Assembly: GCA_003217735.2 (NCBI GenBank)
Contig: CP031585.1
Span: 2,219,501 to 2,283,500 of the forward strand
DNA: 64,000 nucleotides
Direction of reading: 5' to 3'
From: Marinibacterium anthonyi
Lineage (GTDB): Bacteria > Pseudomonadota > Alphaproteobacteria > Rhodobacterales > Rhodobacteraceae
Made by a program: the position numbers and the translations under genes. Below are positions 27,789-64,000 of the stretch, piece by piece; the stretch's first letter is position 1, and every line of letters begins with the position of its first letter. A model generated the notes under the pieces. That model did not search any database, was not told the DNA's origin, and worked only from the letters and a program-made list of their open reading frames with translations.

Positions 27789-28664
27789 TCAGGGCGCCAG
27801 CACCGTGACCCCGGGGATCTGCCGGACCGCCTCGAAATCGGCGTCGTAGATCGCGGTCATCTCATCCACCAGTTCTTCGGTCCATCCGGGCATCTCCAGC
27901 TCTTCGACGAGCTCGTCCTCGATGGCGTATTTCTCCATGAAGATGGCCATCACGCGCTGGCGCTGGACCTCGTTCATGTCGGGGTGATCCCTGAGATAGG
28001 TGCGAAAGCGTTTCATCCCCTCGGTCGAGATGATCGCGCCCAGCAGATCGAAGCTTCCGGTGATCTTCGTGCCGGGCTTCAGCCCCGCCATGGCGCGGAT
28101 GATCTGGCCCCAGATCAGCGGGGTGTCCTCGTTGCACCAGACGGTGATCGGGATGGCGGGGTTCAGCACGCGCATGGCGGTCAGGCTGTAGGACCACAGG
28201 ATGTCGCGGGGGTCGATGCCTTCAAGGAAATCGTCCAGCTCGTCGCGGGGGGATTCCTTGTAGATCGCGGGCAGCAGGGTGGCCGGGTTGCGCATGGCCA
28301 TGAAGATCTCGATGTCGTCGTCGGGGAAAAGCTGGCGCATCTGGCGGATCTTTTCGGGCGCGTTGGGGTATAGCAGGCCGTCGCGCAGGGCGGCGCGGGG
28401 GGCGCCGAAGAAGTGGGCGTTGGACAGGATCATGCGCCTGGCCTTGTCCTCTTCGAGAATGGCGTCGATCAGCACGTCGCGGGCCTCGGGGGCGGCGGGG
28501 CCGTCGCGCAGGGCGTTCAGGGTGTCCTTGAGAAGCTTCTTGTAGCGGCCCGGGCCCGGCACGGCGATGCCGCGGCGCGAGAATTCCTCCTGGTTGCGGA
28601 GGAGGCACTTGATCAGGCGCTCTTCCTCGGTGAAATGCGCGCCGGTGTGGAGGATGATTTGCAT
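27789..28664 (-). CDS. Sulfotransferase-like protein
   Basis: A 291-residue protein. It begins MQIILHTGAHFTEEERLIKCLLRN, similar to the 5'-phosphosulfate-binding loop of sulfotransferases (hHxGxxKTGTT), but the loop is degenerate (no KTGTT). Further on are IEIFMAMRNPATLLPAIYKE, like the sulfotransferase 3'-phosphate motif (R-N-P), and a C-terminal acidic region. Proteins like this are common in Rhodobacteraceae and remain unassigned. It may act on a surface polysaccharide or be an inactive homologue. The ATG at 28664 lies 130 bases from the centre of a palindrome shared with adk. Confidence 0.6.
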   Translation of the reverse strand: MQIILHTGAHFTEEERLIKCLLRNQEEFSRRGIAVPGPGRYKKLLKDTLNALRDGPAAPEARDVLIDAILEEDKARRMILSNAHFFGAPRAALRDGLLYPNAPEKIRQMRQLFPDDDIEIFMAMRNPATLLPAIYKESPRDELDDFLEGIDPRDILWSYSLTAMRVLNPAIPITVWCNEDTPLIWGQIIRAMAGLKPGTKITGSFDLLGAIISTEGMKRFRTYLRDHPDMNEVQRQRVMAIFMEKYAIEDELVEELEMPGWTEELVDEMTAIYDADFEAVRQIPGVTVLAP

Positions 28665-29284
28665 GGGCCTCGGGTCGTGAGGGATCTGTCGGTCCACCCG
28701 GGGTAAACCGTCGCCGGGGTCCGGTCAAATGCGATCGTTCGGGGGCCGGGCGGGGGAAGGCTCCACCAAGGAGAACGCTGAGGGGTGTCCCACGCGTGGG
28801 ACATTTTCGGGTTCAATGAAATCAATGGGTTGCAGAGGCGAATTTACCAATCGTTAGGGATTGGGCGTGGGACGGGTGATGGCCCGGACCGGGGGCCGGG
28901 GTGGCGTGTTCCGTGAGCGGTGGGGGCTGCCTGAGCGGCCGGGTTGGCGTTAGGCCCCACCCCGAAGGGACGAAATGGTCTGTCCGGGGTGAACTGAACT
29001 TGGCAGCCCACGGGGAAGTGTATCGTGGCGCGGGCGGTTGGCCAATCGATGCATCCATAGAGATGGGTGATGCGGGGATGGTGCCAAGCGTGTGGTGCGA
29101 GGTGGAGCGGCAATGGCCCGGTCCAGACCCCACAGGGCGGGAGAGGGTGGCTTTCAGCGATGAAGGCAGCGTGTTTCGGCAACATCGGCCGGTCACGACG
29201 GCCGTCGGGCGCGAATGGCGGCAATTGCACGGCCCGACACACGTTGCAGGAAGGCGCGCGCCGGTGACCCGACGCGCGCATTTT
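28665..29284. other. 620-base gene-free stretch
   Basis: Open frames exist on both strands but none has a plausible start, composition or family resemblance. The left part holds a GTGGGACA palindrome (28786-28803). AT content rises around 28800-28860 (AATGAAATCAATGGG and TTACCAATCGTTAGGG), as in a promoter. The right end carries a hairpin with a T-run oriented for plus-strand transcription, although no plus-strand gene precedes it. A noncoding transcript is therefore possible. Confidence 0.5.
28786..28803. promoter_or_regulatory. TGTCCCAC-N2-GTGGGACA palindrome (copy 1)
   Basis: TGTCCCACGCGTGGGACA is a perfect 18-base palindrome. Its centre is 130.5 bases upstream of the sulfotransferase-like start codon. 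A second copy (62548-62567) is centred 130.5 bases upstream of adk. It is likely a protein-binding site, but no regulator is known to the annotator. Confidence 0.5.
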
Positions 29285-61740: not shown

Positions 61741-62427
61741 TCAGTCGATGGCTTCGGACACGCGGGTCGAAAGCGCGCCGAAGATGTCGTCGATCTGACC
61801 CATGGCGTCGATCTTCTGCAGCACACCGTGGCTGTCGTAATAGCCGATCAGCGGCGCGGTGTCGGCGTGGTAGGCGCGCAGGCGCTCGGCCACGGTTTCC
61901 GCCTTGTCGTCGGACCGGCGCTTGAACTCGGTGCTGCCGCACTTGTCGCAGGTGCCCGCCGTGACCGGCTGCTTGAAGTGATCGTGATAGCCTTCGCCGC
62001 AGCCCGCGCAGGTGTAGCGCCCCGAGATCCGGTCGACCATGGCGGCGTCATCGACTTCGAAGCTGATGGCGGCGTTGATCTGCTGGCCGCTTTCGGACAG
62101 CAGCTGATCCAAGGCCCGGGCCTGCACGGTGGTGCGCGGAAAGCCGTCGAGGATCACGCCGTTGGCGCAATCGGGTTCGGCCAGGCGGTCGCGCAGGATG
62201 GCGATGACGATGTCGTCGCTGACCAGCCCGCCGGCTTCCATCACCGCCTTGGCGGCCTTGCCGGCATCGGTGCCCTGGGCGACCGCTTCGCGCAGCAGGT
62301 CGCCGGTGGAAAGCTGGACGAGGCCGAACTGCGCTTCGAGCTTGCGGGCCTGGGTTCCCTTGCCGGCGCCCGGAGGCCCCAGCAGGATCAGAACGGCCGG
62401 AACAGTCGTGGTTGTGCATCCGTCCAT
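61741..62427 (-). CDS. adk: Adenylate kinase (zinc-LID type)
   Basis: A 228-residue enzyme that equilibrates ATP, AMP and ADP. The P-loop GPPGAGKGTQ is at residues 17-26, STGDLLREAV follows, and ILDGFPRTTVQA binds AMP. The LID domain has the four-cysteine zinc site C-x2-C...C-x2-C (YTCAGCGEGYH and GTCDKCGS). It has a short N-terminal extension (MDGCTTTTVPA) compared with E. coli Adk. Start 62427 is chosen because of the family; the extra upstream residues are poor. It runs in the same direction as acs, 175 bases downstream of it. A GTGGGACA palindrome lies upstream. Confidence 0.97.
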   Translation of the reverse strand: MDGCTTTTVPAVLILLGPPGAGKGTQARKLEAQFGLVQLSTGDLLREAVAQGTDAGKAAKAVMEAGGLVSDDIVIAILRDRLAEPDCANGVILDGFPRTTVQARALDQLLSESGQQINAAISFEVDDAAMVDRISGRYTCAGCGEGYHDHFKQPVTAGTCDKCGSTEFKRRSDDKAETVAERLRAYHADTAPLIGYYDSHGVLQKIDAMGQIDDIFGALSTRVSEAID

Positions 62428-62547: not shown

Positions 62548-62567
62548 GTGTCCCACGTGTGGGACAC
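62548..62567. promoter_or_regulatory. TGTCCCAC-N2-GTGGGACA palindrome (copy 2) upstream of adk
   Basis: GTGTCCCAC (62548-62556) and GTGGGACAC (62559-62567) around GT. It is centred 130.5 bases upstream of the adk start codon and 35 bases beyond the acs stop. The copy at 28786 has the same eight-base arms and the same distance to a start codon. Confidence 0.55.
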
Positions 62568-62602: not shown

Positions 62603-64000
62603 CTACTTGGCAGCCCGGTTGGCGATCAGGTCGTCCACCACCGACGGGTCGGCCAGGGTCGAGGTATCGCCAAGCGCGCCGAAGTCGTTTTCGGCGATCT
62701 TGCGCAGGATCCGACGCATGATCTTGCCCGACCGTGTCTTGGGCAGGCCCGGGGCCCACTGGATCACATCGGGGGACGCGATCGGCCCGATCTCGGTCCG
62801 GACCCAGGCGCGCAGCTCCTTGCGCAGGTCTTCGGAGGGCTCGGCATCGTTCATCAGGGTCACGTAGCAATAGATGCCCTGGCCCTTGATGTCGTGCGGA
62901 TAGCCCACCACGGCCGCCTCGGCCACCTTGGCATGCGCCACCAGCGCGCTCTCGACTTCGGCCGTGCCCATGCGATGGCCCGAGACGTTGATCACGTCAT
63001 CGACCCGGCCGGTGATCCAGTAATCCCCGTCCTCGTCCCGCTTGCAGCCGTCGCCGGCAAAGTAATAGCCCTTGTAATCCGAGAAATACGTCTTCTCGAA
63101 CCGCTCGTGATCGCCCCAGACGGTGCGCATCTGGCTGGGCCAGCTGTCGGCCATGCACAGAACGCCTTCGCTTGGCACGTCGTGGATTTCCTGCCCCGTG
63201 TGCGGGTCCAGCACCACCGGCTTCACCCCGAAGAACGGTTTCATCGCCGATCCGGGCTTGAGCCCGTGGGCGCCGGGCAGGGGCGTCAGCAGGTGGCCGC
63301 CGGTTTCGGTCTGCCACCAGGTGTCGACGATGGGGCAGCGGCCCTGGCCGATGACGTTGTAATACCAGTTCCAGGCTTCCGGGTTGATCGGTTCGCCCAC
63401 GGTGCCGAGGATGCGCAGCGAGCTGAGATCGCATGACTCGACCGGCGCGTTGCCCTGGCCCATCAGCGCGCGCAGCGCGGTGGGCGCGGTGTAGAACTGG
63501 TTGACCTTGTGCTTTTCGCAGACCTGCCAGAAGCGGCTGGCGTCGGGCCAGGTGGGCACGCCTTCGAACATCAGGGTGATCGCGCCGTTGGCCAGCGGCC
63601 CGTAGACGATATAACTGTGCCCCGTCACCCAGCCGACGTCGGCGGTGCACCAGAAGACATCGCCGTCGTGGTAGTCGAAGACGTATTCATGGGTCATCGC
63701 GGCATAGACCAGGTAGCCGCCGGTGGTGTGCACCACCCCCTTGGGCTGGCCGGTCGAGCCGGAGGTATAGAGGATGAACAACGGATCCTCGGCGTTCATC
63801 TCGGCGGGCTTGCAATAATCGTCCGCTTCCATCGCCAATTCGTTGTAGTCGTGATCGCGGTCGGCGATCCAGGTCGTCTGGTCGCCGGTGCGCTTGACCA
63901 CCAGGCATTTCACCGTGTCCCGGCAATGCAGCAGCGCCGCGTCGGCGTTGGATTTCAGCGCCGTCTTGCGCCCGCCACGGGGGGCGGTGTCGGCGGTGAT
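62603..64000 (-). CDS. acs: Acetyl-CoA synthetase (N-terminal part outside window)
   Basis: The frame is open to the right edge, so the first ~190 residues are missing; 465 remain. The AMP-forming motif is [14 protein letters not shown] ([11 protein letters not shown]). Other Acs-specific stretches are [57 protein letters not shown], the hinge [19 protein letters not shown] and the terminal catalytic Lys in [12 protein letters not shown] (its acetylation site). It activates acetate for the glyoxylate or TCA pathways. It is upstream of adk. CrbSR-type kinases regulate acs elsewhere. Confidence 0.97.

Follow-up and report, generated by a model that had tools for sequence, protein, structure and literature searches.

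Dispersed, oriented elements of about 80 bp with a one-way, periodic GC-skew footprint in Marinibacterium and other Rhodobacteraceae: candidate start sites for packaging by a gene transfer agent

Several described systems share parts of their design with the chromosomal element that we report here. The cos site of phage lambda consists of cosN and of cosB, the latter with the IHF site I1 and R sites. In E. coli, the RIP/RIB elements (BIME) are palindromes with an IHF site that lie after genes, in about as many copies as the family described below. The DNA uptake sequences DUS and USS are exact repeated motifs with lineage dialects, which are explained by molecular drive. When packaging proceeds from the pac site of a prophage, reads begin in a regular series whose spacing is the head length and its multiples (PMC12946183; for this and all other papers cited here, our statements refer to excerpts of the text). 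The head of the gene transfer agent (GTA) RcGTA has room for less than 4,500 bp of DNA, which passes to the periplasm and the competence system (PMC7296036; PMC10883770). PMC6854486 states, in excerpt, that discrete sites at which GTA packaging begins had not been backed by any evidence, and describes RcGTA TerS as being without the usual DNA-binding domain. A 2024 review (PMC11841831) states that GTAs appear not to need an initiation site, reports discrete DsGTA peaks and calls the coverage peaks of GTAs symmetrical. In Rhodobacterales, peaks of GC skew have been described for GTA and core genes (Koppenhofer, Tomasch and Lang 2022; PMC9836097). We found no literature on the 18-mer TGTCCCACGCGTGGGACA, and among the matches listed in a mostly open-access literature search, none was recognised by its title or the opening of its abstract as dealing with a GTA start site like the element.

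The window, that is, the whole 64-kb stretch of Marinibacterium anthonyi DNA that was analysed, contains one copy of the element and one solitary palindrome. The features are as follows (4D, fourfold-degenerate).

28186..28785, plus strand: upstream tooth of the skew footprint (4D GC skew +0.48, 77 sites)
28786..28803, plus strand: 18-bp perfect palindrome TGTCCCACGCGTGGGACA, head of the element and putative cos-like cut or binding site; the identical 18-mer is found at 72 of the 74 perfect-arm sites in the genome
28786..36900, plus strand: about two ~4.1-kb steps of the downstream footprint, from 4D GC skew at this copy
28804..28822, plus strand: variable 19-bp spacer between palindrome and conserved tail, mostly of low conservation across copies
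28820..28832, plus strand: IHF-type site AATCAATGGGTTG, matching the consensus WATCAANNNNTTR as printed in PMC10380432
28823..28842, plus strand: conserved tail CAATGGGTTGCAGAGGCGAA, overlapping the IHF-type site; its second half (consensus CAGAGGCGGA) is a conserved motif
28843..28857, plus strand: CtrA-like box TTTA-N7-TTAG (family consensus TTWACC-N4-GTTARG)
62549..62566, minus strand (orientation nominal): decoy, a perfect-arm palindrome with centre GT/AC, no recognisable tail (13/20) and no footprint

The original prediction had paired the two palindromes as either the operator of a regulator or a widespread positional element. The pair is real (TGTCCCACGCGTGGGACA at 28786-28803 and TGTCCCACGTGTGGGACA at 62549-62566), and these are, as had been claimed, the only two in the window, also with up to three mismatches allowed; 100 shuffled windows gave a mean of 0.27 such matches and reached two in 2 of 100 runs. 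Both palindrome centres do lie 130.5 bp from a minus-strand start codon (28664 and 62427), but this spacing is not general in the genome and its equality at the two sites is a coincidence. The product of 61741-62427 is indeed adenylate kinase by Pfam, and the supposedly sulfotransferase-like product of 27789-28664 matches no Pfam family at E ≤ 0.001. The adk-side copy, which made up half of the earlier argument, is the one perfect palindrome that lacks the rest of the element as well as the footprint, and its centre lies 45 bp from the stop of an AMP-binding (acs-like) gene. The adenylate kinase gene at 61741-62427 is directly downstream of this acs-like gene (62603-64000) and outside any ribosomal operon, and a second adk may exist elsewhere in the genome.

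The genome comprises 6.81 Mb in 13 contigs and contains 74 perfect-arm palindromes, 72 on the 5.56-Mb contig C1 and 2 on C3; 72 of the 74 are exactly TGTCCCACGCGTGGGACA. Degenerate copies are scarce: no more than 7 further sites have one or two mismatches, which is about the level of the reversed pattern (81 sites in all at up to two mismatches, against 6 for the reversed pattern). In 73 of the 74 cases the palindrome heads a directional element of about 80 bp, in which it is followed after 19-20 bp by an IHF-type site, a conserved 10-mer and a CtrA-like box. In the alignment of 72 of the 74 copies (decoy included, the two on C3 left out), the distance from palindrome to tail is 20 bp in 49, 19 bp in 22 and 17 bp in 1, and the tail reads CAATGGGTTRCAGAGGCGGA and then TTWACC-N4-GTTARG. 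The spacer has diverged between copies, whereas the 18-mer is invariant in 72 of 74. The IHF site predicted in the tail fits the consensus strictly in 30 of 71 copies and the form W-W-TCAA-N4-TTR in 52 of 71, with CAA and TT nearly invariant. The last part of the tail resembles a CtrA box, for which the binding consensus is TTAA-N7-TTAA; TTWA-N7-TTA is present in 43 of 71 copies, and the boxes of this genome mostly deviate from the binding consensus in each half, while TTAA-N7-TTAA is present in all five copies viewed in the SSD5 genome (see below).

Palindrome and tail are closely coupled. A tail model built from sequence alone detected 75 tails genome-wide, with E values of up to 0.14 (one match at that E), 73 of them beside a perfect palindrome, and 73 of the 74 perfect palindromes have an adjoining tail match, the exception being the decoy at 62549. 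The two tails without a perfect palindrome are at C10:57926-57979, which keeps only the right half TGGGACA, and at C1:4154761-4154814. Only 3 of the 75 tails lie off contig C1, and only 4 perfect palindromes lie within 2.5-3.5 Mb of C1.

We located 72 copies relative to genes called with a home-made dicodon scorer, which misplaces some starts and is the source of the 6 copies that fall inside predicted genes. Among the 66 copies outside genes, the palindrome side faces the 3' end of a gene in 56, with 9-164 bp (median 23.5) from centre to stop, and the 5' end in 10, where the distances are spread over 23-203 bp. Start-codon distances thus show no peak, copies are mostly found after stop codons, and the palindrome makes up no more than the initial 18 bp of a much longer element; for these reasons we reject the proposed operator at -130. 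The alternative offered with it, a widespread positional element, is borne out as an oriented element with many copies in the genome that is common to several genera. Genes converge on the element: coding in its direction accounts for 82% of the kilobase upstream and 30-37% at 0-3 kb downstream.

GC skew near the elements tracks element orientation in 61 of 72 cases (5-kb flanks) or 58 of 72 (2-kb flanks). Replication strand was ruled out as the cause, because replichore accounts for 42-45 of the 72 orientations, depending on the placement of origin and terminus. When 4D GC skew was averaged over the 71 copies of the footprint set (the aligned copies less the decoy), we found a sawtooth that begins at the element and extends in one direction over about 20 kb. 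Oriented by the element and in 250-bp bins, skew is -0.02 to 0.04 from -6 to -1.5 kb, reaches 0.37 at -500 bp, is 0.05 at the palindrome after a drop that spans about -200 to +100 bp, then increases to 0.29-0.33 at 3.25-4 kb and is 0.10 at 5 kb. A second rise (0.21-0.24 at 7.5-8.25 kb) goes down to 0.08 at 8.25 kb, a third is weaker, and skew fades to about 0 at 23-25 kb; beyond 5.5 kb the profile comes from 40 of the 71 copies, drawn from 54 without a further element downstream. At the 28786 copy, downstream skew is 0.22 (0-1 kb), 0.50 (3-4 kb), 0.53 (4-5 kb) and 0.22 (6-8 kb); the drop at 4.1 kb is clear in the averaged profile but not clean at this single copy.

The sawtooth has a period of 4.10 kb in the present genome (bootstrap 95% interval 4.10-4.80), with an R2 beyond a quadratic of 0.527, compared to a maximum of 0.278 in 200 shifted-profile nulls. 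In G417, a genome of another genus, the period is 5.05 kb (4.90-5.55), with an R2 of 0.379 compared to a maximum of 0.279 in 200 nulls; this profile rests on 22 copies, located in 20 of the 87 regions that were eligible among the first 100 of the 154 places listed. Individual copies behave alike: G exceeds C at 2.5-4 kb in 65 of 67 copies in the present genome and 20 of 21 in G417, and at -600 to 0 in 62 of 70 and 22 of 22, respectively (at least 30 sites per copy, ties dropped). The element family and its periodic one-way footprint, seen in two genera, are solid, and processing in fixed-length units in one direction from a site is observed here indirectly, as a mutation trace rather than as packaging itself.

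At 357 other gene 3' ends, skew stays within ±0.06. The 4D skew is the same in genes of both orientations, which rules out gene orientation as its cause, and the footprint has the same form for convergent, tandem and 5'-facing neighbours. A polar k-mer of the Chi or KOPS kind was set aside as well, the most enriched words among the matches listed being generic G-rich ones. In the single case of a palindrome without a tail, the decoy, the footprint is absent. The share of C at 4D sites drops from 0.458 to 0.308-0.325, that of G increases from 0.465 to 0.62-0.63, and A and T are not raised; the shift is thus a C-to-G exchange. Plain cytosine deamination would be expected to leave an excess of T, which AT skew does not show. 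Footprints of similar form were found in M. profundimaris (7 loci) and SSD5 (5 loci), and the upstream peak is present at other loci of Tateyamaria type and of G365, G322 and G341. Six Tateyamaria loci have no footprint, and at six 3-kb loci of the congener G390 skew is positive throughout, with the dip absent.

The layout of the element is common to several genera, and the palindrome sequence is lineage-specific. The exact 18-mer is absent from 389 other genomes of the order, a sample without another Marinibacterium genome; two congeners, G390 and G391, have the tail, together with the exact 18-mer in the 12 loci viewed. The tail was also found in other genera, with a palindrome about 20 bp from the IHF-type site in the loci viewed. 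These palindromes are as follows.

Marinibacterium: TGTCCCA-CGCG-TGGGACA
Tateyamaria (G426): TGTCCCA-N3-TGGGACA
Tropicimonas: TGTCTCA-TCG-TGAGACA (1 of 2 copies; the second is imperfect)
G322: GCGTCCCA-CGA-TGGGACGC
G365: TGTCCA-CGCG-TGGACA (3 of 4 copies; the fourth is broken)
SSD5 and G417: GCGTCCGAGCTCGGACGC (4 of 5 G417 copies; the fifth differs at one end)

A search of 390 genomes with the GTCCCA-type pattern gave 65 copies in the present genome, 59 in G322, 17 in G158, 25, 21 and 11 in three Tateyamaria-type genomes, 9 each in G067 and G341, and single matches in four further genomes, against one match to the reversed pattern in all 390. The four single-match genomes were left out of the bearers, one of them (G337) having a match that looks element-like. 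G417 has 154 copies of its own palindrome type and none of the reversed pattern. Across 385 genomes of the class (5 of them Rhodobacteraceae), more than one GTCCCA-type match occurs only in the present genome, and two others have one each. For 195 relatives, the tail-model counts are minimum values, since that search applied stricter filters and no more than 29 candidates were scored in any one genome; G437 has a single match there. Nine genomes with one match each in a further search were dropped as bearers because the palindrome is absent. Genomes described here as without elements are so for the patterns searched, which other kinds of palindrome would escape.

Some positions are shared between relatives: of six loci examined in each, 5 in G390, 3 in G391 and 1 in G426 occupy the same intergenic position as in the present genome, while none of five G417 loci does. 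One of the five position-matched G390 elements is inverted relative to its flanks, and elements may flip in place. In G417, among the matches listed for about 2.09-2.87 Mb of its contig C1, all elements are on the minus strand at 2.11-2.25 Mb and all on the plus strand from 2.29 Mb. The record CP059262.1, titled 'Exiguobacterium profundum' SSD5, has Rhodobacteraceae-type elements and GTA_TIM matches and is probably a mislabelled MAG. The 86-bp element has no blastn match among plasmid and phage records. A search of viral contigs with the palindrome-spacer-IHF pattern gave 23 matches, which vary in loop and spacing and, by eye, lack the tail, and we read them as chance.

An RcGTA-like cluster that includes terminase, portal, capsid and GTA_TIM genes is located at about 2,036-2,050 kb of C1 in the present genome (G000). 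The cluster region (C1:2030500-2050400) shows strongly positive 4D GC skew of its own, which reaches 0.58 in the terminase/portal part, although the closest of the listed elements are at distances of about 77 kb and 101 kb. The candidate TerS has 113 aa, is similar in length to RcGTA TerS and has no Pfam family; comparing by eye the frames before TerL in bearers and non-bearers, we saw no difference in kind that would mark a distinctive small terminase. GTA_TIM is present in 10 of 11 element-bearing genomes and in 14 of 15 without elements. The Tateyamaria-type genomes G169 and G551, possibly one genome, have elements and no GTA_TIM match, and G552 has a partial match. Two genomes have multiple GTA_TIM matches (11 on 9 contigs in G365, some of them fragments, and 7 in G341), which suggests that a single genome can contain several clusters of GTA-like or related phage genes.

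We propose that the element is a directional start site for headful packaging by the RcGTA-like GTA, similar to cos or pac but scattered over the chromosome, and we put the probability of this reading at roughly 0.7. Equal steps of 4-5 kb that run one way from a fixed sequence call for a length-measuring machine, and the GTA head is, to our knowledge, the only such machine of this size in Rhodobacteraceae. The 4.1-kb step is within the capacity of RcGTA (<4.5 kb) and the 5.05-kb step of G417 is above it. Also in favour of packaging we count the coupling of palindrome and tail, the sawtooth fits, the per-copy skew, the agreement between gene orientations, the 3'-end control, the RcGTA-like cluster, the footprint-less decoy and the C-to-G spectrum.

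Packaging, the cut site, strand import and mutation chemistry are steps that we infer, as follows. A dimeric protein or the terminase would act at the palindrome, and IHF would bend the DNA and bring in the tail motifs, producing a DNA end. Packaging would then run from the palindrome through the tail and fill heads of about 4.1 kb in series, with register lost over about five heads. In the recipient, GTA DNA would enter through the competence system as a single strand, always the same one because ejection would be directional. The polarity of ComEC import is 3'-first. The far end of each head, packaged last, would leave and be imported first, and there the element strand would be exposed longest; one-strand entry via ComEC is described in PMC8579336. 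Strand-biased C-to-G errors would accumulate with exposure and give a sawtooth of the observed sign and gradient. This exchange would fit error-prone synthesis by ImuBC, which is needed for G:C to C:G changes in Caulobacter (PMC3901139). Molecular drive linked to transfer would keep the palindrome identical within a genome and different between lineages.

Several observations count against packaging: the near-equal frequency of GTA_TIM in genomes with and without elements, its absence from G169 and G551, the scant footprint in Tateyamaria, the long step of G417, a TerS outside any Pfam family, the AT skew, and the symmetry of GTA peaks in the excerpted text of PMC11841831. One-way packaging alone does not predict the strong upstream tooth (-1.5 kb to 0), which falls from -200 bp on, before the palindrome; it may stem from resection, or from run-off, at the left-hand end that the same cut would leave. 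IHF is required for GTA transcription in Caulobacter (PMC11150451), so an effect of IHF on GTA production need not act via the elements.

If the element is a packaging start site, it would share with lambda cos a symmetric cut site, an IHF bend site, terminase-binding motifs, a fixed orientation and packaging through the binding side. It differs from lambda cos in its dozens of chromosomal copies without a phage genome, its unrelated tail motifs, its steps of about 4-5 kb and a cut that is putative. Like headful packaging in P22, SPP1 and P1, it would start a headful series from a point, but with 4-5 kb steps, many start sites and a trace in the base composition of the genome itself. The particle family would be that of RcGTA (capacity <4.5 kb) and DsGTA, and DsGTA has discrete over-represented peaks (PMC11841831), but GTAs have no known packaging start sequence in the excerpts of PMC6854486 and PMC11841831. 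The skew peaks of PMC9836097 are likewise local extremes from a choice of G-over-C codons; in that excerpt no sequence element or period is tied to the peaks, whereas ours align with both.

Two other readings of the footprint merit discussion, and we consider each of them unlikely. The element could be a DNA uptake signal that marks DNA for natural transformation without a capsid, the skew being written by strand-biased import. Its exact repetition, lineage dialects, location after stops and strand-specific footprint would all suit such a signal, and the 18-mer shares the first two with DUS and USS. However, the uptake of random fragments gives neither fixed 4.1- or 5.05-kb steps nor a sharp one-way start at the motif, and the site is a composite of 80 bp with fixed-length steps downstream. 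Known uptake signals are also far more numerous than the ~74 copies found here.

Alternatively, and with no better odds, the element could serve chromosome architecture or replication, as a RIP/BIME-like IHF site, a translocase loader or a fork barrier, with skew arising from local replication or repair. The IHF-type site speaks for this, as does the distribution of copies, with 3 of 75 tails off C1 and 4 perfect palindromes in its 2.5-3.5 Mb interval; the latter sparsity had also led us to entertain a Noc-, SlmA- or parS-like palindrome, which we dropped on account of the tail and the one-way footprint. The family matches RIP/RIB in copy number, in combining a palindrome with an IHF site and in its post-gene location, but RIP/RIB contain inverted REPs, and here there is one palindrome per element, in a fixed order of parts and without paired inverted units. 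We know of no directional kilobase footprint of RIP/RIB. Moreover, element orientation follows local skew much better than it follows replichore, and a repeating step that differs in length between genera is left unexplained.

A shared transcription terminator, 3'-UTR hairpin or operator is a distinctly remote prospect. The short median distance of 23.5 bp from stops, the T-rich bases next to the palindrome and a 7-bp hairpin in 4 of 5 folds (two of these being both strands of one copy) would be expected of a terminator. Yet the RNA folding of 95-nt stretches is ordinary (z -0.49 to -1.89), the window copy has no Rfam match up to E = 1, and this reading does not account for the IHF-type site, for a conserved tail at 20-60 bp or for a footprint over kilobases; the Rfam result and the weak folding also led us to discard an RNA element. 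Least credible of all is an old mobile repeat family (REP- or MITE-like) that tends to insert after stops, which would suit the patchy distribution (9 to 154 copies among multi-copy genomes), the partly unshared positions and the inverted G390 copy, but not a diverged spacer beside an undiverged 18-mer, the age of many positions or a periodic footprint, which mobility does not make.

Returning to packaging by the GTA, we lean slightly towards the fuller account, in which dozens of dedicated cos-like sites serve some Rhodobacteraceae as starting points for packaging and exchanging their chromosomes, and this transfer would have been so frequent and directional in the course of evolution that it wrote the headful-length sawtooth into tens of kilobases next to each site and kept the palindrome identical by molecular drive. 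A family of start sites, if true, would change the view, as given in the excerpts of PMC6854486 and PMC11841831, that GTAs pack host DNA without start sequences, and it could explain the GC-skew peaks described in Rhodobacterales in 2022 (PMC9836097). Transfer by GTAs would then be readable from genome sequence alone, with the most transfer at the far end of the first headful and the least a few kilobases upstream of the elements, and the long-open role of GTAs in evolution would become testable.
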